Notes under the pieces: generated by a model
The model's input: only the letters and a program-made list of their open reading frames with translations
What the model was told of the DNA's origin: nothing
Database searches by the model: none
Assembly (NCBI RefSeq): GCF_007997135.1
Contig: NZ_VORU01000009.1
Coordinates: forward strand, 1 to 64,000
DNA from: Aequorivita lipolytica
Lineage (GTDB): Bacteria; Bacteroidota; Bacteroidia; Flavobacteriales; Flavobacteriaceae
Direction: 5' to 3'
DNA length: 64,000 nt
Part shown: one piece after another, positions 3,770 to 62,006 of the stretch
How positions within the stretch are numbered: position 1 is the stretch's first letter
Layout: each line of letters opens with the position of its first letter
Made by a program: the position numbers and the translations under genes

Positions 3770-3790
3770 TAAGACTTAAGATGTAAGACA
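3770..3790. repeat. Heptanucleotide array, three TAAGACT-like units
   Basis: TAAGACT, TAAGATG and TAAGACA follow one another with no gap between the 3' ends of the GNAT and pepE genes. It is one of several period-7 arrays at gene boundaries in this window. Confidence 0.55.
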
Positions 3791-3798
3791 CATTCTGG

Positions 3799-4536
3799 TT
3801 AGAAATTTGAACACTTAGTTCCAGTTTCAACTTCATAAGGTTCTTTCCCTTGTTCAAAAACACGCGCTTTCAATTCTCCTTTCAAAATAATTTCATCTCC
3901 TTTTACTTGTAGCCAACTGCCTTCTCGCAAGCCAACTACCGGAACTGTATTTTGGGTATGAAATTCTGCAATACGCGTTTCGCGAGTTTCGCCCATATGT
4001 TTGCTGCCGAGATCGGGATCTAAATAGTGTGGATTTAAATTGAAGGGAATTACGCCTAAAGTTTTAAATGAAGGTGGATACACTATCGGCATATCGTTAG
4101 TAGTCTGCATAGAAACGCCGCAAATATTACTTCCGGCGCTGGTTCCCAAATACGGCAGACCTTTAAAAATAGCTTCGCGTAGCGGTTGCATAAGTTCCAA
4201 TCGGTAAAGTGCGCTCACTAAAACAAAAGTATTTCCGCCACCCGTAAATGCTCCTTTTGCATTTTTCAAAGCTTCCGCAGGATTTTTAAATGTGTGCAGC
4301 CCAACCAGTTTTTTGCCAATTTTTTGAAATGCTTTTGCTGCTTTTTCAGTGTATTCATCGTGGCTGATGCCGCCGGGGCGGGCGTAAGGAATGAAGATTA
4401 CTTCTTCAGTATCCTTAAATAGATCGGACATTTCACTAGTGAGATAATCTAAATATTCGCCACCGTAAACGGTGCTGGTACTTGCTATTACCAGTTCCCG
4501 CGAAGGCGGGAATCTCTTTGTTTCAGAATTGTTCAT
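3799..4536 (-). CDS. pepE: Peptidase E (alpha-aspartyl dipeptidase, family S51)
   Basis: 245 aa. S51 peptidases hydrolyse N-terminal Asp-Xaa dipeptides in the cytoplasm. The nucleophile elbow GTSAGS places the catalytic Ser at 133; Asp148 (TNDMP) and His170 (LNPHYL) fit the rest of the triad. The GGGNTF oxyanion-side motif is at ~99-104. Length matches the family (~230-245 aa), and no signal peptide is present. It is an isolated minus-strand gene. Confidence 0.9.
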   Translation of the reverse strand: MNNSETKRFPPSRELVIASTSTVYGGEYLDYLTSEMSDLFKDTEEVIFIPYARPGGISHDEYTEKAAKAFQKIGKKLVGLHTFKNPAEALKNAKGAFTGGGNTFVLVSALYRLELMQPLREAIFKGLPYLGTSAGSNICGVSMQTTNDMPIVYPPSFKTLGVIPFNLNPHYLDPDLGSKHMGETRETRIAEFHTQNTVPVVGLREGSWLQVKGDEIILKGELKARVFEQGKEPYEVETGTKCSNF

Positions 4537-4626
4537 GATTGACTAATTTTTCAGAGTTGTAAATTTAGCTATTGCAATTGTAAACTTTAAGTTTTCACTA
4601 ACAAAACAAATATGTACTTTTAGTGA

Positions 4627-5445
4627 ATGACAAAAAACCTACTCCTACTTCTATTTATTGTTGCCGCACCCGTGCTTTTTGCGCAGGACATAGACCGCAC
4701 AAAAGTTTCCGGCAAAATACACGTTCCGCAGGGTGAAGATTCTGAAGGGATTTCTGTATATAATATTTCTTCACAGAAAGGAACAATTACCAGTGCCGAT
4801 GGTACTTTTGAAATTGAACTAGCCGAAAACGATCGCATTCAGATTACTGCACTGCAATATCAGTCGTTCACAGTAGTTGTAGACAGAGGTATTATACAAA
4901 GAAAAGTTATAAATATTTTTCTGAATCCCGCAGTTAATCAACTCGAAGAGGTTGTTGTGAGACCGTACGATCTTACGGGAAACATAAATGTGGACGTAAA
5001 AAAAATCCCAACGTATAACGTTACAAAGAACTGGGATTTGAGTTACAAAAATTTGGAATACGGCTATACTTTTGAACAGGATGATAAAACTGCTATTGCG
5101 GGAAATGCCGCAGAGGAAGCACTTCACGGCAACGCCTTAAAGAATGGTGCAAATGTTTTAGCACTTTTGGGTGGGGTAGCACAATTGCTTTTTCCGAAAG
5201 GAGATAAAATTTCACCAGCCCAGGAACAGGAAGATTTAAGCACTATTAGCAACAATATACAGCAGCGTTTTAGTAAAGATTTTATTGCGGCAAACTTTGC
5301 TATTCCTGAAGATAAAGCAGTTGATTTTTTATTTTTTGCCCAAGAAAATGGTTTGAATAAAGATTTGCTCAAACCTGAAAACGAAATGCAATTAATGGAA
5401 TTTCTCTTCAAAAAAAGCAATGAATACAAAAAGCGTAGTGAGTAA
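4627..5445 (+). CDS. Exported protein with carboxypeptidase-like regulatory domain
   Basis: 272 aa. A cleavable signal peptide (MTKNLLLLLFIVAAPVLFAQ) is followed by a ~90-residue beta-sandwich segment (VSGKI...GTITSADGTFEI...LEEVVV). This resembles the CarboxypepD_reg-like domain found in front of TonB receptors, but no barrel follows. The rest (residues 110-272) is helical and charged, with no recognised motif. It may be a periplasmic or outer-membrane-associated accessory protein. A TACTTTTA -7-like box ends four bases before the ATG, suggesting a leaderless message. Confidence 0.72.
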   Translation: MTKNLLLLLFIVAAPVLFAQDIDRTKVSGKIHVPQGEDSEGISVYNISSQKGTITSADGTFEIELAENDRIQITALQYQSFTVVVDRGIIQRKVINIFLNPAVNQLEEVVVRPYDLTGNINVDVKKIPTYNVTKNWDLSYKNLEYGYTFEQDDKTAIAGNAAEEALHGNALKNGANVLALLGGVAQLLFPKGDKISPAQEQEDLSTISNNIQQRFSKDFIAANFAIPEDKAVDFLFFAQENGLNKDLLKPENEMQLMEFLFKKSNEYKKRSE

Positions 5446-5581
5446 AAATAACTTTTACAGCATAATTATAGTATAAATCAAAATTTTAAACCTGTCCTAC
5501 TTCAGAAGAAAGTAAAACTTAGAAAATTGTAACATCTCAAAATTGAAACCGTCTAATGTTTCATTATTTCCCAATTTTTAT

Positions 5582-6085
5582 ATGAAGTATTTTAAAACTC
5601 TCCTTTTAGTTCTGGTTTTTCCGCTTGTTTCAGCAACTTCTGCACATAAATTTTACGTTAGCATCACAAAAATTGAATACGTAAAAGAGAAAAAATCACT
5701 TCAGATAATCACTAAAATCTTTACTGATGATATTGAAGATGCGCTTCAGCAACGTTACGACGCCTCAATTTCACTAGACACAAATAAGGAAACCGAAGTC
5801 GCAGATGAAGATTTAAAAAAATACATTCTTCAGAAACTGAAGATAAAGGTGAATGGAAAACCAGTTAAACTTACTTATATTGGGAAAGAGTATGATACAG
5901 ATATGCTAATTGCCTACCTAGAAGTTACTGATGTAGCAAACCTTAAATCCATTGAAATAGAAAATAAAGTATTGCTGGAAATGTTTCCCGACCAACAAAA
6001 CATAATCCATCTTAAAACTCCCAATAGCCGAAAAAGTTTAATTCTCGACAGCGACGAATCAAGCGGTAAATTGGAATTTAATTAA
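5582..6085 (+). CDS. DUF6702 family exported protein
   Basis: 167 aa from the ATG at 5582; a longer frame starting at 5543 would put 13 non-hydrophobic residues ahead of the signal peptide. The signal (MKYFKTLLLVLVFPLVSATSA) is followed by the HKFYVSITKIEY opening typical of DUF6702. The protein is a small all-beta periplasmic candidate of unknown function. It lies 44 bases upstream of the M1 peptidase gene on the same strand, a pairing I recall from flavobacterial genomes, so the two are probably cotranscribed. Confidence 0.78.
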   Translation: MKYFKTLLLVLVFPLVSATSAHKFYVSITKIEYVKEKKSLQIITKIFTDDIEDALQQRYDASISLDTNKETEVADEDLKKYILQKLKIKVNGKPVKLTYIGKEYDTDMLIAYLEVTDVANLKSIEIENKVLLEMFPDQQNIIHLKTPNSRKSLILDSDESSGKLEFN

Positions 6086-6129
6086 TAAATTGCCAATCCA
6101 AAAAATATCATTAAAACTTTCTAATTAGT

Positions 6130-8436: not shown

Positions 8437-8456
8437 TTAGTGATTATTTTGAGATT

Positions 8457-8490
8457 CCCTTCTTCAATATTTATTGTGGAAGGGTTTTTT
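8457..8490 (+). terminator. Rho-independent terminator
   Basis: Hairpin 8457-8484 (CCCTTC paired with GAAGGG, continued by CAAT with ATTG across one mismatch) followed by six Ts. It terminates the DUF6702-M1 transcription unit 20 bases past the stop. Confidence 0.8.
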
Positions 8491-8526
8491 GATTATATCA
8501 TTTTCAGAAAAACTCTTCGTCAAACA

Positions 8527-8547
8527 CCTATAACTCATAACTCATTA
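8527..8547. repeat. Degenerate heptanucleotide array before tatA
   Basis: CCTATAA, CTCATAA and CTCATTA follow in register immediately upstream of the tatA -7 box. Only three units, one of them degenerate, so this is a weak member of the period-7 set. Confidence 0.4.
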
Positions 8548-8548
8548 G

Positions 8549-8556
8549 TATATTTG
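8549..8556 (+). promoter_or_regulatory. -7 box TATATTTG of tatA
   Basis: Exact match to the Bacteroidota -7 consensus TAnnTTTG, ending four bases before the tatA ATG (8561). Transcription would start at or next to the ATG, implying a leaderless or nearly leaderless message. Confidence 0.6.
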
Positions 8557-8560
8557 CAAC

Positions 8561-8848
8561 ATGATTTTACAGGCAATTTTTCTTTTCATTAGCGGTGCCG
8601 AAATAGGTTTTATCCTCTTCATCGTACTTTTGGTTTTTGGCGCAGATAAAGTACCAGACATTGCCCGCGGCATAGGAAAAGCGATGCGACAGGTAAAGGA
8701 CGCAACGAACGATATTAAATCTGAAATTTCAAAAGGTGCCCAAAAACAGGGGATAGATATAGATATCACCAAAGACGTCCAAAAGCAAATAGACAAAGTA
8801 AAAGAAAACGTAGACGAAGTTACAGGGCCTATTAAGAGAAAATTTTAA
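8561..8848 (+). CDS. tatA: TatA/TatE-type twin-arginine translocase subunit
   Basis: 95 aa. One N-terminal membrane helix (~8-28), a hinge and an amphipathic helix (ADKVPDIARGIGKAMRQVK) form the TatA/Hcf106 arrangement, followed by a charged coiled tail. TatA subunits oligomerise to form the path for folded proteins at the inner membrane. No tatC is in this window. It is convergent with the O-methyltransferase, only 8 bases between stops. Confidence 0.85.
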   Translation: MILQAIFLFISGAEIGFILFIVLLVFGADKVPDIARGIGKAMRQVKDATNDIKSEISKGAQKQGIDIDITKDVQKQIDKVKENVDEVTGPIKRKF

Positions 8849-8856
8849 TTGTTTTA

Positions 8857-9501: not shown

Positions 9502-9547
9502 TTTTTTAGTAATCAGTTATAAATAGTTAGTGATGTTGGAATTGCAT

Positions 9548-10636: not shown

Positions 10637-10660
10637 AAGAAAATTTAAAGAATGTTAAAG

Positions 10661-11446
10661 TTACAAACTTTTGGTTCGTCCACCATCAACTGGAAGGTTT
10701 ATTCCGTTGATGTAACTTGCGGCTTCACTAGCAAGGAATGCAACCGCATTGGCTATTTCTCCCGGTTGAGCAAAACGTTTTGCAGGAACAAGACTTTTCA
10801 TAAATTCGCTGGCTCCTTTTTCGGTTTTATCCATTCGTTTTGCAGCGTTGCCTACAATATCATCTAACCTGTCAGTAGCGGTAAAACCTGGCAAAACGTT
10901 ATTTACTGTAATTCCGAATTGGCCCAATTCATTTGCAAGCGTTTTGCTCCAACTGGCAACTGCGCCACGAATGGTATTACTAACGCCAAGTCCGTCAATG
11001 GGTTGCTTTACAGAAGTTGAAATTATATTTATAATGCGTCCGTAATCAGCTTCTTTCATTCCAGGAACAACTGCTTGTACCAAAATCTGGTTACAAATTA
11101 CGTGCATAGAAAATGCTTTTTCAAACTCCTCCGTTGCCGCAGAAAATATGGGGCCGCCTTTTGGACCTCCAGTATTATTTAGCAAAATGTGAAAAATTTT
11201 GTTGGAAACCGCAACTTCCACTTTGTCTTTCAACTGTTGTGGATTTGTAAAATCTGCCACAAAATAATTATGTTTCTGTCCTTTATCGTATGCGAGTTCA
11301 ATTAAAGTTTCTTTTAATTTTTCTTCATCGCGGGCAACCAAAGTTACGGTCGCTCCAAGTTTTGCCAATAGAATGGCGGTTGCTTTTCCAATGCCGGCGG
11401 TACTTCCGCAGACTAAGGCGTTTTTATCTGTTAAGTCTAGATTCAT
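10661..11446 (-). CDS. SDR-family protein with altered catalytic tetrad
   Basis: 261 aa. The Rossmann nucleotide motif is present as GSTAGIG (14-20) with the LLNNTGG strand at ~88-94. The catalytic Ser143 (ISTS) is kept, but the expected Tyr-x3-Lys 13 residues later reads Ser156-Asn-Thr-Ile-Arg160. The C-terminal VDGG motif is normal. Such a protein may bind NAD(P)(H) without acting as a standard dehydrogenase. Its position between ALDH and ACMSD suggests a role in the 2-aminomuconate branch. An eight-unit heptamer array ends six bases before its ATG. Confidence 0.82.
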   Translation of the reverse strand: MNLDLTDKNALVCGSTAGIGKATAILLAKLGATVTLVARDEEKLKETLIELAYDKGQKHNYFVADFTNPQQLKDKVEVAVSNKIFHILLNNTGGPKGGPIFSAATEEFEKAFSMHVICNQILVQAVVPGMKEADYGRIINIISTSVKQPIDGLGVSNTIRGAVASWSKTLANELGQFGITVNNVLPGFTATDRLDDIVGNAAKRMDKTEKGASEFMKSLVPAKRFAQPGEIANAVAFLASEAASYINGINLPVDGGRTKSL

Positions 11447-11452
11447 ATTTTC

Positions 11453-11508
11453 AGTATTGAGTATTGAGTATTGAGTATTGAGTATTGAGTATTGGGTATT
11501 GAGTATTA
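11453..11508. repeat. Heptanucleotide array (AGTATTG)x8
   Basis: Six perfect AGTATTG copies (11453-11494) are followed by GGTATTG and AGTATTA. The array lies in the short leader of the SDR gene, six bases from its start codon. Changes in copy number would move any promoter by seven bases per unit. Confidence 0.95.
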
Positions 11509-11523
11509 GTGTTCGGTGCTCAG

Positions 11524-11559
11524 TTCAACTTCAATTTCAACTTCGATTTTAATTTCAAT
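11524..11559. repeat. Hexanucleotide array (TTCAAY)x6
   Basis: TTCAAC, TTCAAT, TTCAAC, TTCGAT, TTTAAT and TTCAAT are contiguous in the gap between the ALDH and SDR genes. This is a second array, with a different period, 15 bases from the heptamer array. Confidence 0.75.
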
Positions 11560-11567
11560 TCAATGTT

Positions 11568-11580: not shown

Positions 11581-13035
11581 TTAGGGGGTCTCTTCATATT
11601 TAATACACACATTCTTTGTCTCCGTAAAAAATCTTAATGCTTCAAATCCACCTTCGCGGCCTACGCCACTGTCTTTCATTCCGCCGAAAGGAGTTCTTAA
11701 ATCTCTATTTAGCCAAGTGTTTACCCAAACTATTCCTGCTTCAATTTCTTTAGAAATGCGCATTGTGCGGTTTAAATCTGAAGTCCAAAGGGTAGCGGAT
11801 AGGCCGTATTTTACGGAATTTGCCATTTGCAATGCTTCTTCTTCGGTTTCAAAAGGCATAATGGTGACAACCGGTCCGAAAATTTCTTCCTGGTTCACCC
11901 GGCATTGATCGTCAAAAACTTCAATAACCGTGGGCTCTAAATAATACCCATTTTCAAAGTCTTTTACTGTTACCCGATTTCCACCACAAAGTATTTTTCC
12001 GCCTTCTTTTTCTGCGATTTTAATGTAAGACTCTACTTTTTCTAAATGTGGTTTTGAAACCAATGCCCCTAAATTTGATTCAGCATCAAACGGATTACCA
12101 ACTTTTAATTGTTTTACTTTTTCGACGAAGTCTTTTTTGAATTTTTCATAGATGGGCTTTTCAACAAAAATTCTACTTCCGCAAAGGCAAATCTGACCTT
12201 GGTTTGCGAATGAAGAGCGCACTGTTACTTCCAACATTTTCTCATAATCGCAATCGGCAAATATGAGGTTTGGGTTTTTTCCGCCGAGTTCCAAAGAGAG
12301 TTTTTTGAACATTGGCGCAGCGGTTCGGGCAATGTGTTCACCCGTTTTTGTTCCGCCGGTAAAAGATATTGCTTTAATGTTTTTATGCTCCACAATGGCT
12401 TGCCCTGCGGAAGGCCCCGTGCCATGGACGATATTCAAAACGCCTTTTGGCAGTCCCGCTTCGGTGCAGATTTCGCCTAAAAGAAAAGCGGTTAATGGCG
12501 TTATTTCGCTTGGTTTGGCAACCACCGTATTTCCAGCAGCGATTGCTGGAGCTATTTTCCAAGTGAATAAATACAAAGGAAGATTCCAAGGTGAAATGCA
12601 ACCAACCACGCCAAGAGGTTGACGCAGAGTAAAATTCATTGTGTTCAAACCCACACTTTCGTGTGCTTCGCTTGAAAATTGAGTAATAGCATTTCCGAAA
12701 AACCTAAAGTTTGAAGAGGCTCTCGGAATATCAACAGCCAAAGCTAAAGTTAGCGGTTTGCCATTGTCCTTTGCTTCAGCTTCGGCTAAGGCGAATAGCT
12801 TTTCTTCAATTAAATCTGCAATTTTTAAAAGAATTCGGCTGCGTTCGTCAATGGTTGTGTTGCTCCATTTTGGGAAAGCTTCTTTCGCAGCTTGGTATGC
12901 GTTTTCAATATCTTCTGTATTTGAATCTGCAATCTGTGAATACACTTCGCCATTGGAAGGATTGTAGTTATCCAACCATTTTTTCGAAAGCGGTTCAATG
13001 TATTCGCCGTTTATGTAGTTTAGGATTTTTTGCAT
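11581..13035 (-). CDS. Aldehyde dehydrogenase, probable 2-aminomuconate semialdehyde dehydrogenase
   Basis: 484 aa from the ATG at 13035; an in-frame ATG at 13044 would add three residues. ALDH hallmarks are SPWNLP (Asn151 oxyanion), LELGGKNP (Glu249 general base) and FANQGQIC (Cys283 nucleophile). In the kynurenine pathway this family (AMSDH/2-hydroxymuconic semialdehyde dehydrogenase) oxidises 2-aminomuconate semialdehyde with NAD+. It follows the RidA-like gene by under 30 bases, separated by a heptamer array. Substrate assignment rests mostly on gene context. Confidence 0.88.
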   Translation of the reverse strand: MQKILNYINGEYIEPLSKKWLDNYNPSNGEVYSQIADSNTEDIENAYQAAKEAFPKWSNTTIDERSRILLKIADLIEEKLFALAEAEAKDNGKPLTLALAVDIPRASSNFRFFGNAITQFSSEAHESVGLNTMNFTLRQPLGVVGCISPWNLPLYLFTWKIAPAIAAGNTVVAKPSEITPLTAFLLGEICTEAGLPKGVLNIVHGTGPSAGQAIVEHKNIKAISFTGGTKTGEHIARTAAPMFKKLSLELGGKNPNLIFADCDYEKMLEVTVRSSFANQGQICLCGSRIFVEKPIYEKFKKDFVEKVKQLKVGNPFDAESNLGALVSKPHLEKVESYIKIAEKEGGKILCGGNRVTVKDFENGYYLEPTVIEVFDDQCRVNQEEIFGPVVTIMPFETEEEALQMANSVKYGLSATLWTSDLNRTMRISKEIEAGIVWVNTWLNRDLRTPFGGMKDSGVGREGGFEALRFFTETKNVCIKYEETP

Positions 13036-13041
13036 CTCTCT

Positions 13042-13076
13042 CATAACTCTGCACTCTTAACTCTTAACTTTTAACT
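13042..13076. repeat. Heptanucleotide array spanning ridA stop and upstream ALDH ATG
   Basis: On the minus strand five units follow in register: AGTTAAA, AGTTAAG, AGTTAAG, AGTGCAG, AGTTATG. The TAA stop of the RidA-like gene lies in the second unit, and the last unit supplies the first of two candidate ATG codons of the ALDH gene. Confidence 0.7.
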
Positions 13077-13492
13077 GGAGAATAAGCCATCGCCTTTATC
13101 TCCACCACCAAATGCGGATGCGGCAATTGATGTACCGCAACTGTAGTACGGGCTGGCCCAGTTTCTTTGTTGAAATATTCTGCATAAACTTCGTTGTAGC
13201 CTGCAAAGTCATTCATATTCACCAAAAAACTGGTCACGTCAACCACATCGGCCATTGTGGCGCCTTCGGTGGCTAAGTAATCCTTTATGTTTTCCAGCAC
13301 CGCGCGGGTTTGTTCTTTTATGTCGAAATGCATCGTGCCCATTTCGTCAATTTTATGAACGCCGGCAAAGGTATTGTCGGGTAAACGTGAACTTGTTCCG
13401 CTAATAAATATGAAATCACCCACGCGTTTTACGTGAGGATATGCGCCTCTTGGTGTTGCTTTGCCTTCTACTAATCTGCTTTTGTTACTCAT
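13064..13492 (-). CDS. RidA-family deaminase, probable 2-aminomuconate deaminase
   Basis: 142 aa. The YjgF/RidA fold is indicated by [11 protein letters not shown], the VTSFLVNM strand and the conserved GPARTTVAV (substrate-binding Arg) near the C-terminus. In kynurenine clusters this subgroup hydrolyses 2-aminomuconate to 4-oxalocrotonate and ammonia. Standard RidA would instead clear reactive enamines, but the position between KMO and ALDH favours the pathway role. The last three codons and the stop come from a heptamer array. Confidence 0.85.
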
Positions 13493-29075: not shown

Positions 29076-29117
29076 ATGAAAGTCGAAATAGGAAATGCAG
29101 AATATGAAATTTGGAAT
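29076..29117. repeat. Degenerate heptanucleotide array (NNGAAAT)x6
   Basis: ATGAAAG, TCGAAAT, AGGAAAT, GCAGAAT, ATGAAAT and TTGGAAT follow in register between the sigma-factor stop and the lipA promoter. The conserved half is GAAAT and the first two bases vary. Confidence 0.5.
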
Positions 29118-45211: not shown

Positions 45212-45263
45212 CTGATAACTGATAACTGATAACTGATAACTGATAACTGATAACTGATAACTG
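45212..45263. repeat. Heptanucleotide array (CTGATAA)x7
   Basis: Seven perfect CTGATAA copies plus CTG, between pyrE and the SRPBCC gene. On the coding strand it reads CAGTTAT repeated and begins three bases after the pyrE TGA. The same unit starts an array at 60606-60634. Confidence 0.95.
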
Positions 45264-45266
45264 AAA

Positions 45267-45905
45267 TCACCCCCAAGTTTCAGGATTCTCCCGCCATTCA
45301 GAAAGTAACGCAGCTTCTTCAGAATTTATATATCTTGATTTTTCGGCTTCTTCCAGCAACATTTCATAATTGCTCAAAGTGTTCAAAGTAACGTGGGCAT
45401 TCCTAAAATTTTCTTCCGCAGTTTTAAAGCCGTAGCTGAAAATTGCCAACATTCCTTTCACATTTGCATCTGCTTCCTTTAAAGCTTCAACAGCCAGCAA
45501 GCTACTCTTTCCGGTGCTTATTAGGTCTTCCACAACTATTACGCTGGTGTTTGGTTCCAAATGGCCCTCAATTTTATTTTGGCGTCCGTGGCCTTTTGCT
45601 TCGGGACGAACGTAACAAAAAGGAACGTTCAAATAATCGGCTACCAAAGCGCCCATCCCAATTGCTCCAGTAGCTACACCGGCAATCATTTCGGGCTTTC
45701 CGTAAAGTTCCTCAATTTGTTTGGCGAGGTTTTCACGAATGTAATTTCGTATCATTGGATAGGAAAGTGTGATGCGATTATCGCAATAGATAGGAGATTT
45801 CCATCCCGATGCCCATGTAAAAGGGTTTTGTGGTTGTAATTTTATTGCATTAATTTGCAATAGCAACGCAGCGGTTTTTTGTGCCGTTTCTTTGTTTAAT
45901 ATCAT
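45267..45905 (-). CDS. pyrE: Orotate phosphoribosyltransferase
   Basis: 212 aa from the ATG at 45905; an upstream extension to 45956 has no support and would run into the NUDIX gene. The PRPP-binding motif VIVVEDLISTGKSS and the flexible-loop VRPEAKGHGRQNKIEG with its conserved Lys are intact. It forms OMP from orotate and PRPP in pyrimidine synthesis. Its -7 box overlaps the start codon of the divergent NUDIX gene. Confidence 0.94.
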   Translation of the reverse strand: MILNKETAQKTAALLLQINAIKLQPQNPFTWASGWKSPIYCDNRITLSYPMIRNYIRENLAKQIEELYGKPEMIAGVATGAIGMGALVADYLNVPFCYVRPEAKGHGRQNKIEGHLEPNTSVIVVEDLISTGKSSLLAVEALKEADANVKGMLAIFSYGFKTAEENFRNAHVTLNTLSNYEMLLEEAEKSRYINSEEAALLSEWRENPETWG

Positions 45906-45909
45906 CGTG

Positions 45910-45917
45910 CAAATGTA
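45910..45917 (-). promoter_or_regulatory. -7 box TACATTTG of pyrE, overlapping the NUDIX ATG
   Basis: Exact TAnnTTTG match on the minus strand, ending four bases before the pyrE ATG. The NUDIX start codon (45913-45915) lies inside this box, so both genes share eight to ten bases of control DNA. Confidence 0.6.
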
Positions 45918-46536
45918 TAAAGTTTTTGTAAAAGAAATTCCTATTATTCTTTCCACTGAGAAAAATATTGGGGAGCATTATACTACCATCCCTTTAAAAC
46001 AAGCTCGTTTTAAGAAGTTGATAAAAAAAATAAACAATGGTGAACTGCTCTACGTGAACCTTTATCACAAAAATGCAGAAAAGTTGGAACGCTTTCTTCG
46101 GAAAAAAATAAAAGTTGTGGAAGCCGCCGGAGGAATGGTCTATAACAGTAAAAAAGAAATTCTTTTTATCCGAAGAAACAAGAAATGGGATCTTCCCAAA
46201 GGTAAAATTGAAAAAGGAGAAACCCATCGCGAAGCAGCTGTGAGAGAAGTTATTGAGGAAACTGGTGTGAAAGATCTGGAAATTCGAGATTTTATAATGA
46301 CCACCTACCACGTTTTTACCCGCAACGATAAATTCCGACTCAAAATAACGTATTGGTACGAAATGTTTAGCGATTACGATGGTCCGCTGGTTCCTGAACC
46401 CCAAGAGGGAATTAAAAAGGTAAAGTGGAAGAATTTTGAAAAATCCCAAAAAGCGTTGTTGGATTCTTACGAAAATATAAAACTGCTCTTTCCGAAGGAA
46501 TATCTAACCACCCACCCGAACGATAGGATAACGTAA
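45913..46536 (+). CDS. NUDIX hydrolase family protein
   Basis: 207 aa from the ATG at 45913. The NUDIX box is complete: GKIEKGETHREAAVREVIEE followed by TG, matching Gx5Ex7REUxEExGU. Residues 1-75 form an extra N-terminal domain. The family hydrolyses nucleoside diphosphates linked to another moiety; the substrate is unknown. Its start is seven bases from the divergent pyrE start, and its 3' end overlaps the M14 peptidase gene by 33 bases. Confidence 0.9.
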   Translation: MYKVFVKEIPIILSTEKNIGEHYTTIPLKQARFKKLIKKINNGELLYVNLYHKNAEKLERFLRKKIKVVEAAGGMVYNSKKEILFIRRNKKWDLPKGKIEKGETHREAAVREVIEETGVKDLEIRDFIMTTYHVFTRNDKFRLKITYWYEMFSDYDGPLVPEPQEGIKKVKWKNFEKSQKALLDSYENIKLLFPKEYLTTHPNDRIT

Positions 46537-49337: not shown

Positions 49338-51041
49338 TTAACCGTTCATCGAAATCAAAAACTCTTCGTTGTTTTTGGTTTTTTTAATTCGGTCGTTGAT
49401 GAATTCCATTGCTTCCACAGGGTTCATATCTGCAAGGTATTTGCGCAATACCCACATACGTTGGAGTGTGTTTTCATCAAGCAGCAAATCGTCGCGACGT
49501 GTGCTGGAAGAAGTAAGGTCTATGGCTGGGAAAATTCTTCGGTTGGAAATTTTTCTATCCAATTGAAGTTCCATGTTGCCGGTTCCTTTAAATTCCTCAA
49601 AAATAACCTCGTCCATTTTAGAACCCGTTTCAGTCAGAGCAGTTGCAATGATAGTTAAAGAACCACCGTTTTCAATATTACGGGCAGCACCAAAGAAACG
49701 TTTTGGTTTGTGAAGCGCATTTGCATCCACACCACCACTTAATATTTTACCGCTCGCTGGCTGAACTGTGTTATAAGCTCTCGCCAAACGCGTAATGGAA
49801 TCCAAAAGAATTACTACATCGTGACCACATTCTACCAATCGTTTTGCTTTATCTATAACTAGATTTGCTACACGCACATGTTCCGTAGCTTCTTTATCAA
49901 AAGTTGAAGCAACCACTTCACCACGAACATTTCGTTGCATATCGGTAACTTCCTCCGGGCGTTCGTCAATTAAAAGAATAATTTGGTAAACTTCCGGATG
50001 GTTTGCGGCTATTGCATTTGCAATATCTTTCAACAACATAGTTTTACCCGTTTTTGGCTGGGAAACAATCATTCCACGCTGTCCTTTTCCGATAGGTGCA
50101 AAAAGATCTATAATCCTTGTTGAAATAGTACTTTGCTTATCGGCAAGGTTGAATTTTTCTTGTGGGAAAAGCGGCGTTAAATGCTCAAAAGAAACTCGGT
50201 CGCGAACCACATTAGGGTTTAGACCATTTATTTTGTTCACCTTAATTAAAGGAAAATATTTTTCACCTTCCTTTGGCGGACGCACTTCGCCTAAAACAGT
50301 ATCTCCAGTTTTTAAACCGAAAAGACGAATCTGTGATTGCGAAACGTAAATATCATCGGGAGATGACAGATAATTGTAATCGCTGGAACGCAAAAATCCA
50401 TAGCCATCCTGCATTAGATCAAGCACACCTTCGCTTTCAATTATTCCATCAAACTCATAATCTGGCTCGCGATAACGGTTTCGGGAATCTTTGTTTCCGT
50501 TACTTCTATTATCCTGCACATTGCCGTCCTTTTGTTTTTGGTTTTGATGTTTTGGGCGGTTGTCTGAGTTGTTATTGTCGTTGCGCTGGTTTTTCTGCCT
50601 GTTGTCAGTATCGTTAGAAACTGGCCGCGGATTAGGCTTTTTGTGTTGCGGCTTTTTGTCGCTTTCCTTTTTATCCTTTTTATCGTTGCTCGAACGCTTG
50701 TCGTCAGCAGTTTTTTTATCATCATCACTTTTTTTATCGTGATGTGGTTTATTTGGCTGCGGCTTTTTGTTTCTGTTGTCGTTCTTCTGCGGGCGCGGTT
50801 TTGAATCTTTCTCGCGATTATCACTAGAAGAAGCGGTTTTTTCCTCCTTTTTTGTTTCTGAAGAAGACTCTTCCGCTTTAATGACTGCTTTTACCGCCTT
50901 TGGATTGGCAGCTTGGTAATCGAGGATTTGATATACCAAGTCTAATTTTTTTTGTGTGCGATATTTCGGCACATTGAGGTCTTTGGCTATATCCTGAAGC
51001 TCAGGTAGCTTTTTACTTTTTAAATCTGAAATTTCAAACAT
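49338..51041 (-). CDS. rho: Transcription termination factor Rho with long disordered insert
   Basis: 567 aa. Rho N-domain (1-45), a ~140-residue disordered segment (~55-195) made of Lys, Asp, Asn, Gln, Arg and Pro, then the RNA-binding cold-shock-like domain (~196-280) and the ATPase with Walker A PKTGKT (329-334) and Walker B Asp414 ([14 protein letters not shown]). All ring residues appear intact. The insert makes it much longer than E. coli Rho (419 aa). In Bacteroides thetaiotaomicron a comparable segment has been reported to drive phase separation. Confidence 0.95.
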
Positions 51042-51220: not shown

Positions 51221-51243
51221 CTGCTTAATTGAGTTTTTGTAAA

Positions 51244-51654
51244 ATGATACAACGCATTCAGACCATTTATTTAATTGTTTCCGCCCTTGTTATGGGAGCC
51301 TTGTTTATGTGGTTTCCAGTTGTATTGGGAGCAGATGGTTCGGTAATTATGGACCGTAATGAGCCTTTGCTTTTTGGACTCATATTTGTTTCAATCGCGC
51401 TGGCGATTCTTTCAATCTTAAATTTCAAAAAACGGCAGACACAGTTTGTGATAAACCGTTTAAATATAATATCAAACTTTGTATTACTGGGAGTTTTCGT
51501 TTACAGGTTGCTAACTTTATCCGGAGAAACTATTGTTTCAGAGAAGGGTATTGGGGTGCTTTTTCCCATCATTTCTATCGTATTTTTAGTGCTGGCCAAT
51601 AAGGCTATAAAAAGGGATGAGGACCTCGTAAAATCTGTTGATCGTTTACGATAA
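51244..51654 (+). CDS. DUF4293 membrane protein
   Basis: 136 aa from the ATG at 51244 (an in-frame TTG at 51229 is less likely). Four membrane helices with the family opening MIQRIQTIYLIVSALVMG. The family occurs in Bacteroidota next to rho or truA and has no known function. It ends 24 bases before a strong terminator. Confidence 0.88.
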   Translation: MIQRIQTIYLIVSALVMGALFMWFPVVLGADGSVIMDRNEPLLFGLIFVSIALAILSILNFKKRQTQFVINRLNIISNFVLLGVFVYRLLTLSGETIVSEKGIGVLFPIISIVFLVLANKAIKRDEDLVKSVDRLR

Positions 51655-51678: not shown

Positions 51679-51718
51679 AACCCCTGAAGTATGCCAACTT
51701 CGGGGGTTTTTTGTTTTT
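51679..51718 (+). terminator. Rho-independent terminator
   Basis: 12-bp stem (51679-51690 with 51697-51708, one G-T pair) around ATGCCA, followed by a T-rich tract. It ends the DUF4293 transcript. Confidence 0.85.
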
Positions 51719-51723
51719 TGTTA

Positions 51724-51784
51724 AGTTCAAAGTTCAAGTTTTAAGCTGAATTTTCACTAATTCCTCTTCGCTATTCGCTCTTCG
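51724..51784. repeat. Two heptanucleotide arrays: AGTTCAA and CTCTTCG units
   Basis: AGTTCAA, AGTTCAA, GTTTTAA occur at 51724-51744, and CTAATTC, CTCTTCG, CTATTCG, CTCTTCG at 51757-51784. Both lie between the DUF4293 terminator and the convergent phosphodiesterase gene. Confidence 0.5.
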
Positions 51785-51791: not shown

Positions 51792-52283
51792 TTATTTCCC
51801 AAACTCAATAACTTCCAAATTCTGGATTTTCTCCCCATCAATTTCAAAACGGAGCATGGTGCGCACTTTCTGAAAACCGTGTTTGCCAGCGGCGCCAGGA
51901 TTCATATGTAGCAGTCCCGTTTTTTTATCTGGTATCACTTTTAAAATATGCGAGTGGCCAGAGATGAAAATTTTTGGAGGGTTGGAATAAATTTCCTGCC
52001 TAATAGAAGGATTGTACTTTCCGGGATAGCCACCAATGTGGGTTATCCAAACGTCAACCCCTTCGCACATAAAACGATTGTTCAGTGGAAACTCCATGCG
52101 TGCTTCGGTATTATCTATATTTCCATAAACAGCTCGCAAAGGCTTGAGTTTTTTTATGGCATCTGTAACAGAAAGATCGCCAATATCGCCAGCATGCCAC
52201 ACTTCATCGGCCTGTTTTACATATTGCAGAATTTTTTCATCTATATAACTGTGGGTATCGCTTAGCAGGAGAATTTTTTTCAA
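51792..52283 (-). CDS. YfcE/MJ0936-type metallophosphoesterase
   Basis: 163 aa. Metal-binding motifs in order: LLSDTHSY (DxH), VWHAGDIGDL (GD), AVYGNIDNTE (GNxD), VWITHIGGYP (H) and ISGHSHI (GHxH). This is the small calcineurin-like phosphodiesterase family. Substrates in homologues are cyclic nucleotides or phosphodiesters; the natural one is unsettled. It is divergent from truA. Confidence 0.9.
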   Translation of the reverse strand: MKKILLLSDTHSYIDEKILQYVKQADEVWHAGDIGDLSVTDAIKKLKPLRAVYGNIDNTEARMEFPLNNRFMCEGVDVWITHIGGYPGKYNPSIRQEIYSNPPKIFISGHSHILKVIPDKKTGLLHMNPGAAGKHGFQKVRTMLRFEIDGEKIQNLEVIEFGK

Positions 52284-53130: not shown

Positions 53131-53142
53131 AAAAAAGCAACA

Positions 53143-53562: not shown

Positions 53563-53635
53563 TAGCCCTCTTATAAAGGGAATAGTTGGAATAAATTTAT
53601 TACTTATTAACGAATTTACAAATTAACAGTTTAAA

Positions 53636-55402: not shown

Positions 55403-55404
55403 GC

Positions 55405-56178: not shown

Positions 56179-56259
56179 GTATGTGCGTTTTTTTGTAAAA
56201 GTACTTTAAAAATTGATTCTATTGAAACTGTTGTTTTTATTGATACTATTGTTCGTTTT

Positions 56260-57096
56260 TTATTTCGTGATATTTTTTAGGCTTTCAAACAATTTCACAC
56301 ATTCCACAGCTTCTTTTACATCGTGTACTCTTAAGATTGATGCACCTTTTAAAAGTGAAATTGTGTTGAGCGCTGTTGTTCCGTTTAATGCATCTTCTGA
56401 GGAAATCTCCAAGGTTGTGTAAATCATCGATTTTCTGGATACGCCCACTAAAACGGGAATATCTAAATTCTGAAAAAGCTCTAGATTGTTTAAGATCTGA
56501 AAACTTTGTTCACGTGTTTTTGCAAAACCAAAACCTGGATCGACGATTATATCATCAATGCCTTCGGCCCGGGCCAATGCAATTTTTTCAGATAAATTTT
56601 TTAAAACTTCAATGGTTACATTCATGTAATCATTGAGTTTCGCCATTGTTTTTGGGGTGCCGCGCATGTGCATCAAAATGTACGGAACTTTCAGTTTTGC
56701 AACCGTTTTATACATTTCGGCATCCAAAGTTCCGCCGGAAACGTCATTTACCATTGCAGCTCCGGCTTCCACAGCTTTTTTTGCAACTTTACTACGGAAG
56801 CTGTCTACAGAAATCAATGCTTCAGAAAAAATTTTCAGAATAATTTCGATCGCTTCTACAACCCTTCGCGTTTCTTCGCTTTCAGAAATTTCATCTGCAC
56901 CCGGCCGTGTGCTATAGCCGCCAATGTCCAGGAACGTAGCGCCTTCCGAAAGCATTTTTTCGGCTTGCTTTAAAATTTCTTTTTCAGTAAAGGTTTTTCC
57001 GCCGTCATAAAACGAATCTGGAGTAACATTAATGATGCCCATCACTTTGGGCACAGAGAGGTCTATTAGTTTGCCGTGGCAATTAAGGGTCTGCAA
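56260..57096 (-). CDS. folP: Dihydropteroate synthase
   Basis: 278 aa. Pterin-binding motifs: GIINVTPDSFYDGGK, the GATFLDIGGYSTRPGA pABA loop, and DPGFGFAKT. It condenses pABA with hydroxymethyl-dihydropterin diphosphate and is the sulfonamide target. It starts the folP-cdaA unit and is divergent from the DUF1599 gene. Confidence 0.95.
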   Translation of the reverse strand: MQTLNCHGKLIDLSVPKVMGIINVTPDSFYDGGKTFTEKEILKQAEKMLSEGATFLDIGGYSTRPGADEISESEETRRVVEAIEIILKIFSEALISVDSFRSKVAKKAVEAGAAMVNDVSGGTLDAEMYKTVAKLKVPYILMHMRGTPKTMAKLNDYMNVTIEVLKNLSEKIALARAEGIDDIIVDPGFGFAKTREQSFQILNNLELFQNLDIPVLVGVSRKSMIYTTLEISSEDALNGTTALNTISLLKGASILRVHDVKEAVECVKLFESLKNITK

Positions 57097-57144
57097 TTTT
57101 TTAAAATTTGTTTTTTTAAAATCAATATGCTAGTTGCTGAATAA

Positions 57145-57172
57145 CTTTAAGCTTTGAACTTTGAACTTTGAA
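57145..57172. repeat. Heptanucleotide array (CTTTGAA)x3 plus a relative
   Basis: CTTTAAG followed by three perfect CTTTGAA units in the divergent region between folP and the DUF1599 gene, within 41 bases of the latter's ATG. The unit is the reverse complement of the AGTTCAA unit (rotated) seen at 51724. Confidence 0.75.
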
Positions 57173-57212
57173 CTATTTAAGCGAAATTTACGCAAAATCT
57201 TACACATCACTA

Positions 57213-57788
57213 ATGGCGGATACTTCAAATCAATATAACGACCAGATTGAAAAATGCAGAGCGCTGTTTATCAATAAAATGCACGATTACGGAAGTGCAT
57301 GGCGTATTCTCCGGCTTCCATCGTTGACAGACCAAATTTTTATAAAAGCGCAGCGCATCCGTGGTTTGCAGAAAAATGCCGAACAAAAAATTGAAGAAGA
57401 CGAAGCCAGCGAGTTTATTGGCATTGTAAATTATTCAATAATGGCGCTTATTCAGTTGGATAAAGGCATTGTGGAACAACCAGATTTTTCTTTGGAAGAA
57501 GCAACACAACTTTACGATGAAGAAGTTTTTAAAACCAAACAATTAATGATGGACAAAAATCACGATTACGGCGAAGCTTGGCGTGATATGCGAGTAAGTT
57601 CGTTAACAGATTTGATACTTCAGAAATTATTGCGTGTTAAACAAATTGAAAATAATAGTGGAAAAACGTTAGTTTCTGAAGGAATTGATGCTAATTACCA
57701 AGATATGATTAATTATGCGGTATTTGCGTTGATTCATTTGGAAGAAAGACAAGAGAAGAAAGAAGAAAGAAGAAAGAAAAAAGAATAA
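57213..57788 (+). CDS. DUF1599 protein with internal duplication and heptad-repeat tail
   Basis: 191 aa from the ATG at 57213 (a TTG at 57168 would sit in the heptamer array). The domain occurs twice: INKMHDYGSAWRILRLPSLTD (~20-40) and MDKNHDYGEAWRDMRVSSLTD (~125-145), both with the HDYGxAWR core. The last 15 residues EERQEKKEERRKKKE come from a heptanucleotide array that runs into the stop codon. Function unknown; it is upstream of the DoxX fusion. Confidence 0.85.
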   Translation: MADTSNQYNDQIEKCRALFINKMHDYGSAWRILRLPSLTDQIFIKAQRIRGLQKNAEQKIEEDEASEFIGIVNYSIMALIQLDKGIVEQPDFSLEEATQLYDEEVFKTKQLMMDKNHDYGEAWRDMRVSSLTDLILQKLLRVKQIENNSGKTLVSEGIDANYQDMINYAVFALIHLEERQEKKEERRKKKE

Positions 57789-57789
57789 G
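57741..57789. repeat. Heptanucleotide array (GAAGAAA)x7 running through the DUF1599 stop codon
   Basis: GAAGAAA, GACAAGA, GAAGAAA x3, GAAAAAA, GAATAAG are contiguous. It is the only array here that lies mainly inside a coding frame; because 7 is coprime to 3 it encodes a seven-residue peptide repeat. Confidence 0.8.
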
Positions 57790-57818
57790 AAATTCATTAC
57801 AGGATAGAAACAATACTT

Positions 57819-59525: not shown

Positions 59526-59526
59526 T

Positions 59527-60603
59527 TTGATAGGCTACATACTTCAAAAACTAGGTTATGCAGTACTCACGTTGTTTGGGGTTGTAACCGTGATTTTCTT
59601 TCTTTTCACTGTTCTTCCCGGCGATCCCGCACGAATGATGCTCGGTCAAAATGAAACTGCGGAACAGCTTGCAGTGGTGAAAAAAAAATATGGTTTTGAT
59701 CAGCCAGTTTCCGTGCAATATTTAAGGTATTTGAATGACCTGTCTCCTATTTCGTTTCACAGTAAAACTCCAAACGATTATACTTACTTGGCGGAAGGAA
59801 AATACAATGCAGCGAAATTATTTTCAGTTGCAAATACAAACGTAGTTTTAAAAACACCGTACTTGCGCGAATCATTCCAAAAAAACGGAAAAGAAGTGAG
59901 CGAAGTAATAGCTGAAACCCTTCCCAACACATTTATTTTGGCAGTTTCAGCAATTGTTATTGCGATGCTAATTGGCGTTTTCCTCGGAATTATTTCGGTG
60001 CTTTTTAAGGATGGTTTTATTGATAAGATGATTCAATTAGTAAGCACTTTGGGAATGAGCGTTCCTTCGTTTTTCAGTGCAATTATTTTTGCGTGGATTT
60101 TCGGCTTTTTGCTTCACGAGTACACAAATTTAAATATGACTGGAAGCCTTTATGAAGTAGATGATTTCGGTGAAGAAAAATACATTCAGTGGAAAAACTT
60201 GATACTTCCCGCAATTGTTTTGGGAATTCGACCACTGGCAGTTGTTAGCCAATTAATGCGCAATTCGTTATTGGAAGTCTTGAACCAGGATTACATTCGC
60301 ACGGCAAAGGCAAAAGGTCTTTCTTTTTATCAAATTATAAAAAGACACGCGCTTAAAAACTCATTAAACCCGGTGGTTACAGCTATTTCGGGCTGGTTTG
60401 CAAGTATGCTTGCAGGTGCAGTTTTTGTGGAATACATCTTCGGGTGGAACGGATTGGGTAAAGAAATTGTGAACGCATTGAATACGTTGGATCTGCCTGT
60501 AATTATGGGAGCAGTAATTGTTATAGCAACATTGTTTATTATTATTAATATTTTTGTTGATATAATTTATGGTTGGCTAGATCCTAAAATTAGTAGGCAG
60601 TAA
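59527..60603 (+). CDS. Opp/Dpp-type ABC transporter permease (orphan)
   Basis: 358 aa, TTG start one base after the previous stop. Six membrane helices with FTVLPGDPARMMLG at the N-terminus and the EAA-type DYIRTAKAKGL loop that contacts the ATPase. The OppB/DppB family normally partners OppC, two ATPases and a binding protein, none of which is nearby. A ~70-residue extracytoplasmic insert (~65-130) follows the first helix. It is translationally close-coupled to the DoxX fusion. Confidence 0.88.
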   Translation: MIGYILQKLGYAVLTLFGVVTVIFFLFTVLPGDPARMMLGQNETAEQLAVVKKKYGFDQPVSVQYLRYLNDLSPISFHSKTPNDYTYLAEGKYNAAKLFSVANTNVVLKTPYLRESFQKNGKEVSEVIAETLPNTFILAVSAIVIAMLIGVFLGIISVLFKDGFIDKMIQLVSTLGMSVPSFFSAIIFAWIFGFLLHEYTNLNMTGSLYEVDDFGEEKYIQWKNLILPAIVLGIRPLAVVSQLMRNSLLEVLNQDYIRTAKAKGLSFYQIIKRHALKNSLNPVVTAISGWFASMLAGAVFVEYIFGWNGLGKEIVNALNTLDLPVIMGAVIVIATLFIIINIFVDIIYGWLDPKISRQ

Positions 60604-60605
60604 AT

Positions 60606-60634
60606 CAGTTATCGGTTATCGGTTATCGGTTATC
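60606..60634. repeat. Heptanucleotide array, CAGTTAT then (CGGTTAT)x3
   Basis: Starts two bases after the permease TAA. The first unit is identical to the repeat unit downstream of pyrE read in the same sense; the others differ at one base. Confidence 0.8.
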
Positions 60635-60636
60635 AT

Positions 60637-60644
60637 TAAATTTG
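60637..60644 (+). promoter_or_regulatory. -7 box TAAATTTG of the thioredoxin-like gene
   Basis: Exact TAnnTTTG match immediately after the heptamer array and 22 bases before the ATG at 60667. Confidence 0.5.
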
Positions 60645-60666
60645 CAATACTATCAAATCTCAAAAT

Positions 60667-61143
60667 ATGAAAACATTAATTGCCCTTCTATTATTTGTAA
60701 CCTTTGCGCAGGCGCAACAAAAAACCTTCACGGAAGCAGCGTTGAGTGAAAAATTTCTTTCAGAAAATAGCGCAGAAATAAGCTTTTCAGAAATACTTCA
60801 GCAATACAAAGGCAAAACCGTTTTCATAGATATTTGGGCCAGTTGGTGTAAAGATTGTATTGTGGGAATGCCAAAAGTGCAAAAGTTGCGCGAGGAAAAT
60901 CCCGAAGTTATTTTTTTATTCCTTTCGTTAGATAAAGAAACCGAGAGTTGGAGGCACGGCATTAAAAAGTATGGCGTAGTGGGCGAAAATTATTTTATAC
61001 CAGCAGGGTGGAAAGGTGCCTTTTGTTCTTCTATAGATTTAGATTGGATTCCGAGATATATGGTGGTTGATACTGGAGGCGAAATAAGTCTATACAAAGC
61101 GATTGAAACGAACGACGAAAATCTTTTAAAAGCATTAAAATGA
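60667..61143 (+). CDS. TlpA-like thioredoxin-family protein, exported
   Basis: 158 aa with a signal peptide (ending FAQAQ). The active site is WCKDC (Cys61, Cys64) in FIDIWASWCKDC, and a cis-Pro region (DLDWIPRYMVVD) follows. It probably reduces disulfides or delivers reductant in the periplasm. Its TGA overlaps the tpiA ATG (ATGA), so the two are translationally coupled despite unrelated functions. Confidence 0.9.
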   Translation: MKTLIALLLFVTFAQAQQKTFTEAALSEKFLSENSAEISFSEILQQYKGKTVFIDIWASWCKDCIVGMPKVQKLREENPEVIFLFLSLDKETESWRHGIKKYGVVGENYFIPAGWKGAFCSSIDLDWIPRYMVVDTGGEISLYKAIETNDENLLKALK

Positions 61144-61895
61144 GAAGAAAAATAGTAGCAGGTAACTGGAAAATGAACTACGATTTAGCCGAAACTGAAC
61201 TGTTTTTGGTTGAATTGAAAAAGCAAGTTTTCCCCGAAAATGTAATGGTAATGATAGCTCCGGCCTTCACAAATTTGAATCATGCTTTTAATTCGGTGCG
61301 TGAGCATCCCGTGACAATCGTTGCCCAAAATATGCATCAAAACAACGAAGGTGCTTTTACTGGTGAAATCTCTGCAAAAATGCTTAAAAGCATTGGGGTG
61401 ACCACTGTCATTTTGGGTCATAGCGAGCGCCGCGCATATTTTAATGAAAACAGCACTGTTCTTTCCGAAAAAGTAAATACTGCTTTAGAAAATGAGATGA
61501 CGGCTATTTTTTGTGTAGGTGAGGAGTTAAAGGATAGAAAGGAAGAAACCCATTTTGAATTGATAAAAACACAACTCTCTGAAGGAATTTTCCACATTTC
61601 TGACGATGCTTGGAAGAATATAGTTATCGCCTATGAGCCCGTTTGGGCAATTGGTACCGGCGAAACAGCAAGCCCAGAGCAAGCGCAGGAAATGCACAAA
61701 TTCATCCGGAAAACTATTGCTGAAAAATATTCAAAAGAAATAGCAGATAAAGTTTCAATCCTTTACGGAGGCAGTGTAAAAGCAGACAATGCCACTGAGA
61801 TTTTTGGACAGGAAGATGTGGATGGCGGATTGATTGGGGGCGCATCGCTGAAAGTAGATAGTTTTATGAAAATAATTAACGCCTTCGGGACTTAA
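61140..61895 (+). CDS. tpiA: Triosephosphate isomerase
   Basis: 251 aa. Catalytic residues are seen in GNWKMN (Lys11), ILGHSERR (His) and AYEPVWAIGTG (Glu, loop 6), with the phosphate loop YGGSVK. It interconverts DHAP and G3P. The gene follows the thioredoxin gene with a four-base overlap and ends in a period-7 region. Confidence 0.96.
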   Translation: MRRKIVAGNWKMNYDLAETELFLVELKKQVFPENVMVMIAPAFTNLNHAFNSVREHPVTIVAQNMHQNNEGAFTGEISAKMLKSIGVTTVILGHSERRAYFNENSTVLSEKVNTALENEMTAIFCVGEELKDRKEETHFELIKTQLSEGIFHISDDAWKNIVIAYEPVWAIGTGETASPEQAQEMHKFIRKTIAEKYSKEIADKVSILYGGSVKADNATEIFGQEDVDGGLIGGASLKVDSFMKIINAFGT

Positions 61896-62006
61896 ATAAC
61901 AAATTCCAAATCATAAATAAATTCCAAATCCCTAAAAAGCAAATTTCAACTTTGCTTTTTGCTTTTTATTTGGAATTTGGTGCTTGTAATTTGAGATTTT
62001 TTTTCG
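61894..62006. repeat. Period-7 region with nested inverted repeats after tpiA
   Basis: Left part: AAATAAC, AAATTCC, AAATCAT, AAATAAA. Right part (from 61951): TTTGCTT, TTTGCTT, TTTATTT, GGAATTT, GGTGCTT, GTAATTT, GAGATTT. AAAAAGCAAA (61934-61943) pairs with TTTGCTTTTT (61951-61960), and AAATTCCAAAT (61919-61929) with ATTTGGAATTT (61968-61978), giving a large stem-loop. It starts in the tpiA stop codon. Confidence 0.7.

Follow-up and report, generated by a model that had tools for sequence, protein, structure and literature searches.

Seven-base tandem arrays with many different units at gene junctions of Aequorivita lipolytica

Heptamer arrays in the window

The window analyzed here is a 64,000-base stretch of the Aequorivita lipolytica draft genome (3.31 Mb; assembly GCF_007997135.1), corresponding to bases 1-64000 of the 135,327-base contig NZ_VORU01000009.1. 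Its dihydropteroate synthase has its nearest named records in Aequorivita, at 74-87% protein identity. Its gene junctions harbor short tandem arrays of seven-base units (heptamers). The period stays at seven while the unit differs widely among arrays, and the arrays lie mainly between genes, often at gene ends, are scarce in coding DNA, and are inherited at orthologous junctions within the genus.

A preliminary description of the window listed twelve such places. Each coordinate was scored by lag-7 self-matching (match +1, mismatch -1.3). Open reading frames (ORFs) were taken from a greedy caller written for this analysis, so that start positions are rough. Six of the twelve places are strong and two are moderate; three are inseparable from chance when taken singly, and 51757 has no separate confirmation. 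Tandem Repeats Finder together with an exact scan recovers clear heptamer arrays at 11453, 45212, 57143, 57741, and 60604. The segments, none of which is assigned a strand, are as follows.

11450-11507: AGTATTG heptamer array, about 8 copies, score 44.1 (strong); 3 nt upstream of the start of an SDR-like gene, 10661-11446 (-)
45212-45264: CTGATAA array (a rotation of TAACTGA), 7.6 copies, score 46.0 (strong); starts 2 nt past the stop of the gene 45267-45956 (-), with the sense reading TCAGTTA
60604-60634: ATCGGTT/ATCAGTT heptamer array, 4.4 copies, score 21.7 (strong); begins on the first base after the stop of 59527-60603 (+)
57145-57174: CTTTGAA (AACTTTG) heptamer array, score 18.4 (strong); between a divergent folP-like gene, 56260-57096 (-), and the ORF 57168-57788 (+)
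13046-13076: degenerate ACTCTGC ACTCTTA ACTCTTA ACTTTTA ACT, score 17.1 (strong); spans the 19-nt junction of 11581-13044 (-) and 13064-13492 (-) and extends into the second ORF
57747-57793: AGAAGAA-type purine-rich period-7 run, score 23.9 (strong); at the 3' end of the ORF 57168-57788 (+), 89% within it
51706-51745: degenerate GTTTTTT then TCAAAGT run, score 12.3 (moderate); between 51229-51654 (+) and 51792-52283 (-)
8530-8545: two-copy ATAACTC repeat, score 9.0 (moderate); 15 nt before the start at 8561 (+)
61951-61980: TTTGCTT run between 61140-61895 (+) and 62023-62850 (+)
3770-3788: TAAGACT TAAGATG TAAGACA, score 7.4 (inseparable from chance singly)
29078-29096: GAAANNN run, listed as 29076, score 5.1 (inseparable from chance singly)

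At 51757, the scan gives only the neighboring segment 51706-51745, and the listed place 61894, with a score of 6.5, is likewise inseparable from chance singly. Taken as a group, however, segments scoring at least 7 number 11, versus 1.37 expected. Across the 4285 intergenic bases of the window, period 7 yields eight segments with scores of 9 or more (0.18 expected) and six with scores of 11 or more (0.03 expected). The corresponding counts are 2 and 2 at period 6, 1 and 0 at period 8, and 2 and 0 at period 9.

Excess of period 7 in intergenic DNA

The own-genome sample comprises 1,244,855 bases (1.245 Mb) of the 3.31 Mb in six contigs or contig parts, including the window (sixty stretches plus the window). 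For period 7, it contains 113 exact runs of at least 10 matches between genes and 24 within coding DNA, equivalent to 845 and 22 per Mb, respectively. At the neighboring periods, the intergenic and coding counts are 9 and 19 (period 6), 15 and 14 (period 8), and 10 and 8 (period 9). This genome count, with intergenic and coding DNA kept apart, bears out the spike at exactly 7 that the preliminary description had predicted; a smaller second spike sits at 8.

Chance or low-complexity composition is the simplest explanation of such runs, and the four window places that are inseparable from chance or unconfirmed are in keeping with it. Genome-wide, it is refuted, and it retains next to no probability: the intergenic pieces contain 53 exact lag-7 runs with 14 or more matches, versus 0.0 expected under a second-order Markov model built on the same pieces. 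The arrays are thus not matched in randomized intergenic DNA; a match there would, according to the preliminary description, have refuted its claim. Runs of this length number 4, 9, and 5 at periods 6, 8, and 9.

The excess persists when degenerate arrays are included. Intergenic segments scoring at least 14 at periods 6, 7, 8, and 9 number 4, 86, 19, and 6 in the own genome, 0, 22, 8, and 1 in 12 congeners, 0, 13, 3, and 0 in genome G007, and 1, 43, 9, and 3 in 72 other loci (L077-L148), which are nearly all Flavobacteriaceae by title, with a few titled otherwise and one contig present twice (L097 and L101). The own-genome set of 86 period-7 arrays covers 5172 bases, and 57 intergenic segments score at least 20. 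Once the arrays are masked, lag-7 self-similarity is at the level of its neighbors (0.2968, versus 0.2971 and 0.3006 at lags 6 and 8), indicating that the signal is confined to discrete arrays.

Ten arrays each are found in two 20-kb bins, at 40-60 kb of G000 contig C45 and 360-380 kb of contig C14. The first 180 kb of contig C14 holds only two arrays over nine such bins.

Diversity and structure of the units

A consensus unit is obtained for 75 of the 86 own-genome arrays, the other 11 being dropped for want of a usable exact repeat, and these 75 arrays carry 58 distinct units. The preliminary description proposed a constant period with a free unit. The period and the multiplicity of units agree with this proposal; the unit sequence is not entirely free, as 19 pairs of own-genome arrays share a unit, versus 4.1 for shuffled units (maximum 15).

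In arrays of at least 56 bases, adjacent copies are 0.86 identical and copies six units apart 0.76, with 76-79% identity at six or more units. Some arrays switch word midway while keeping the register. Local duplication accompanied by mutation predicts both the greater likeness of near copies and the in-register switch. Uneven columns occur in 29 of 49 degenerate arrays and can be accounted for by common descent of the copies. A fixed four-base word followed by three free bases was considered and rejected, as the four best columns adjoin one another in only 14 of the 49 (0.29, versus 0.2 by chance).

Self-folding of the unit is not the cause of period 7. A hairpin origin, with a 4-nt stem and a 3-nt loop, is rejected because the units are no more self-complementary than shuffled ones: their hairpin energy is -2.38, versus -2.62 (sd 0.34) for shuffled units, and 4-nt palindromes show no excess (22 of 75, versus 29.6). 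A larger repeat is seen at 49975-50543 of G000 contig C45, a minisatellite whose units of about 90 bp combine heptamers (GGTTCTC, GGTTGCA) with a block of some 20 bases.

Inheritance at orthologous junctions

Synteny was compared over 60-kb stretches from the 12 congeners plus the window. The proteins flanking three of the arrays are found in 26, 28, and 28 of 28 genus genomes. Presence of the arrays is patchy, with 52 of 664 junction-species cells occupied. Array-sharing species pairs number 114, versus 39.9 under random placement by spacer length (maximum 92 in 2000 draws). With both strands compared, the unit is identical in 62 of these 114 same-junction pairs and in 3 of 1109 different-junction pairs. 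The species are related and share branches, so that these pair counts, like the indel counts below, are non-independent and describe inheritance rather than probabilities.

The contrast between same-junction and different-junction pairs argues that no single mobile element spread the arrays, in agreement with the preliminary description, which had set them apart from copies of one element. The arrays also lack the hallmark of mobile or repetitive extragenic palindromic (REP)-like elements, the same sequence at many unrelated sites, as only those three cross-junction pairs share a unit. Spread by a horizontally moving repeat such as TAACTGA, or by a mobile element, is therefore largely contradicted for the genus and is regarded as highly improbable. 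Such spread would fit the TAACTGA repeats of distant phyla (PMC4679880), the excess of unit-sharing pairs in the own genome, and the three cross-junction pairs, one of which has TAACTGA as its common unit. However, many AACTNNN words recur at spacing 7 in the phylum, and TAACTGA is only one of them.

Individual junctions show related and drifting units. The junction orthologous to 11450-11507 holds arrays in 6 of 11 congeners. There, AGTATTG occurs in the own genome, G001, and G008, and G022 has AGTATTC. The words in G026 and G002 are of the ATTCTC and ATATTCA types, and G023 carries a CCTCATC array of 14.6 copies; copy number at this junction ranges from 3.9 to 14.6 between species. Nine of 12 congeners have the AACTTTG unit at the folP-like junction (score at least 11), and the unit of 13046-13076 is identical in three. 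Other units occur at the 60604 junction in four congeners, ACTCATA/ACTCATT-type arrays at the 8530 junction in four and AATTCTG in a fifth, CCAAATT/AAATCCC arrays at the 61951 junction in two, and degenerate arrays at the 29078 junction in four.

At the 45212 junction, no period-7 array reaches score 12 in the 12 syntenic congeners. Among 28 genus loci for this junction, post-stop heptamer arrays occur in four, no two of which share a unit: TCAGTTA (own), ATTTCAG (L178), GTAGGCA (L196), and ATTAGCA (L202). Eight genus loci have an 8-base AAACTCAT-like array further on, and L196 and L202 have both kinds.

Two further features were seen by eye. Upstream of the folP-like gene, L069-L073 carry an AGTTCAA array and roughly 80-90 bp of extra sequence, and L074-L076 have a spacer without the AGTTCAA array. 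The 3' flank of the ALDH-like gene, at the 11453 junction, carries a palindromic REP-like sequence of types CCCTTCGACTGCGCTCAGGGTGAC and GAGCGCAGTCGAGG in congeners (L154, L157, L161, L165, L167, L170, L171, and L174).

Position at gene ends and strand polarity

Adjacency was assessed at junctions with exactly one array (score at least 11) and no gene overlap, observed and simulated alike. In the own genome, an array is found no more than 7 nt from 26 of 74 stop ends, versus 12.4 under random placement (maximum 21 of 4000). The other loci give 8 of 28, versus 2.8 (P 0.0013), and the abutment is not significant in the small sets (congeners 4 of 20, versus 2.5; G007 3 of 12, versus 1.4). Starts show no such excess in the own genome, where 12 of 70 have an array within 7 nt, versus 11.1 under random placement. 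Adjacency to starts is slightly raised in the congeners when gene overlap is allowed (11 of 36, versus 7.2; P 0.06).

Arrays within 40 nt of a gene end tend to be richer in G than in C when read outward from that end. The ratios of G>C to G<C, ties omitted, are 33:9 at tandem stops, 21:7 at tandem starts, 9:1 at convergent stops, and 8:2 at divergent starts, but 16:18, and hence without polarity, for mid-junction arrays more than 40 nt from the ends. The start polarity is the same as in array-free spacers (194:77 and 151:65). Just after stops, 0-20 nt downstream, the sense strand has G>C in 25 of 34 own-genome arrays, versus 168 of 394 array-free spacers (p=0.00057), and in 18 of 19 arrays of the other loci, versus 170 of 465 (p=3e-07). 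The polarity fails in G007, with one stop-proximal array of G>C and four of G<C, and at congener tandem stops (6:5). In base composition, stop-proximal arrays (A.372, C.125, G.216, T.287) nearly match the final 30 bases of coding sequence (A.369, C.145, G.197, T.289).

These positions bear on the possibility that the arrays are functional RNA or DNA elements whose period and polarity are selected: unstructured translation leaders at starts, and, at stops, elements acting on mRNA 3' ends or serving as binding platforms. The stop abutment in the own genome and the other loci, the outward polarity near gene ends that vanishes mid-junction, and the retention of AACTTTG at the folP-like junction all speak for such a role. 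However, presence is patchy, the diversity of units is excessive for one sequence-specific binder, adjacency to starts is random in the own genome, and the start polarity equals background. A functional role is possible but doubtful.

Spacers with several arrays display the polarity within a single junction. Of 20 junctions that hold at least two arrays (period 7 or 8), 12 have a G-rich array leftmost and a C-rich array rightmost, and one has the reverse; of the remainder, five carry the same sign twice and two are ties. The units commonly differ between the arrays of one spacer. An outward G-rich strand at gene ends makes two-array spacers mostly opposite in polarity, as in these 12 of 20. 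It is conceivable, though improbable, that something reading gene ends makes or keeps the arrays, placing the G-rich strand outward from stops and starts alike on either strand. If so, position, polarity, and free unit would all follow from a single process growing outward, for example repeated 3' extension at spacer breaks.

Other registers in Bacteroidota

Four AACT words at spacing 7 occur in 46 of 118 Bacteroidota genomes, versus 13 at spacing 8, 7 at spacing 9, and 4 at spacing 6. The reversed pattern, with TCAA acting as a second anchor, occurs in 44, 15, 18, and 13 genomes at spacings 7, 8, 9, and 6 (eye count). Some genomes depart from seven. Degenerate 9-base AGTTTGGNN arrays are found in G141, a class relative whose genome measures 2.0 Mb, together with 55 AACT matches at spacing 9; G096 has 22 matches at spacing 9, and G079 has 19 at spacing 8 and none at 7. 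The AGTTTGGNN arrays are intergenic in four of six stretches examined, with polarity as for the heptamers in these four, and lie over ORF calls in two. Under the improbable gene-end reading above, the period may be set by lineage, given the degenerate 9-base arrays of this relative. Only one match in G141 is found with the reversed anchor, so that the 55 may represent one repeat family. Registers of 8 or 9 specific to a genome were considered and set aside, as G141 possibly holds one family and G142 and G072 carry arrays of period 7 and period 8 alike.

Among the G141 loci (L287-L292), two AGTTTGGNN arrays of L292, at 670-710 and 717-758, occupy the spacer from a stop to a start in facing orientation. 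Separate 9-base arrays lie near heptamer arrays in G000: ACAGAATCA on contig C45 (86259) and GATTCTGTT on contig C47 (124779). The 8-base AAAC arrays of G000, as at contig C45 8924 and contig C47 124873, resemble AACTNNN heptamers with one A added. In the own genome, their polarity is as for the heptamers, 9:0 stop-proximal and 0:8 start-proximal. Pre-start spacers with 8-base AAAC arrays are also seen in L181, L185, L187, L191, L193, L196, L199, and L202.

Proposed mechanism

The best reading, and a probable one, is that these are inherited seven-base slippage arrays filtered by constraint at gene ends. An array would begin in non-coding DNA, with a short word present by chance or through duplication, and would grow and shrink by replication slippage in whole units. 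It would then be kept in place by descent while its unit mutates, giving each junction related, drifting units across species. Selection would decide persistence, tolerating arrays outside reading frames and often against a stop codon, and near starts would favor the G-poor, weakly folding direction. Start-proximal arrays do fold more weakly in sense than in antisense (-0.049 versus -0.094 kcal/mol/nt; n=33). Such a direction fits translation initiation in this phylum, which does without Shine-Dalgarno sites; in Flavobacterium johnsoniae, initiation is tuned by mRNA structure and lacks such sites (PMC6847099). The period itself is likely explained, as others proposed earlier, by re-pairing of the slipped strand over about the length gripped by the polymerase.

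Several observations weigh against this account. Indels outside arrays in alignable intergenic DNA of the congeners show no peak at 7, with 8 of size 7, 12 of size 6, and 14 of size 12. The stop polarity is the reverse of that in array-free spacers (113:161 and 55:65), and stop-proximal arrays fold slightly more strongly in sense (-0.108) than in antisense (-0.081; n=51). Seeding of arrays from the preceding gene end is rejected, with unit resemblance at 5.89, versus 5.94 for the ends of other genes (47 arrays). Because the polarity opposes background and the units bear no likeness to the gene end, the G-rich sense after stops is accounted for by neither constraint nor seeding. Array density per 20-kb bin is overdispersed relative to Poisson given spacer length (chi-square 183.8, 62 df), and the unit-sharing pairs exceed the shuffled expectation. 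Slippage itself enters by inference, from a comparison between species with one genome each.

The indels also bear on the mechanism envisaged in the preliminary description, a general machine with a seven-base register. Such a machine is not supported: no general 7-nt indel bias is seen outside arrays, and masked lag-7 similarity is at the level of its neighbors; the preference shows only inside arrays. The register is therefore not a general property of slippage. Either the preference is too weak to be visible in single steps, or it belongs to the growth of existing repeats.

Comparison with known systems

Cyanobacterial short tandemly repeated repetitive (STRR) heptamers are seven-base tandem repeats with few fixed units. 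Further comparisons refer to the accessible parts of the papers cited, and to Mrazek et al. 2007 through secondary descriptions. The preliminary description knew of no named equivalent in Bacteroidota. This is contradicted by PMC4679880 (MacGregor 2015), which reports TAACTGA repeats in five Bacteroidetes and other heptamer repeats beside TAACTGA in Gramella forsetii, Aequorivita sublithincola, and Elizabethkingia anophelis. The same paper credits to Mrazek et al. 2007 both the finding that heptamers are the commonest repeat class and the idea of a 7-nt polymerase contact.

The closest class is that of the heptanucleotide long simple sequence repeats (LSSRs; Mrazek et al. 2007, via PMC4679880 and PMC4692102). 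There, too, seven-base units are the most abundant, lengths not divisible by three occur mainly outside genes, and the polymerase-contact hypothesis predates the present analysis. The arrays described here share the defining traits of LSSRs, being longer than chance and the commonest class among units of 5-11 nt, with 113 of 137 exact period-7 runs intergenic. By those secondary descriptions, they differ in the many units per genome, the abutment of stop codons, and the polarity at gene ends.

The 45212 array is itself a TAACTGA repeat, its unit being TAACTGA in at least two copies. It is reverse in sense and 86 nt away from the next start, unlike most BOGUAY copies, which are in forward orientation just ahead of starts, and unlike the repeats of A. 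sublithincola, which are also forward; the post-stop set of F. litoralis is likewise reverse-oriented (PMC4679880). For BOGUAY, where related heptamers are scarce, horizontal transfer has been considered (PMC4679880). Here, in contrast, at least 58 units are present and arrays are common to orthologous junctions, which weakens the case for horizontal TAACTGA transfer in the Aequorivita group.

The GGGAATC and GGGGA(T/C)T heptamers of Xanthomonas and Nostoc also form perfect or degenerate arrays over-represented in intergenic DNA, but with one G-quadruplex-forming consensus per genome rather than many A/T-rich units (PMC4692102). Borg tandem repeats vary in unit length (18, 20, 21 nt), whereas the length here is fixed near 7 (PMC9879509). 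In the accessible parts of the open-access literature, neither stop abutment nor a gene-end polarity common to many units was found described, and the same holds for diverse units combined with array sharing at orthologous junctions.

Seven-base repeats have been known from scattered bacteria since at least 2007, and in the literature covered, the reason for the period has been proposed but not demonstrated. The heptamer class, its abundance, the polymerase idea, and TAACTGA and other heptamers in the genus are already known. With 57 segments scoring at least 20, many units, and named cultured relatives, the choice among polymerase, selection, and a gene-end process becomes testable. Relative to the known systems, the additions here are the diversity of 58 units, the sharing of arrays at orthologous junctions, the stop abutment, the gene-end polarity, and the AACT period of 7 in 46 of 118 Bacteroidota genomes.

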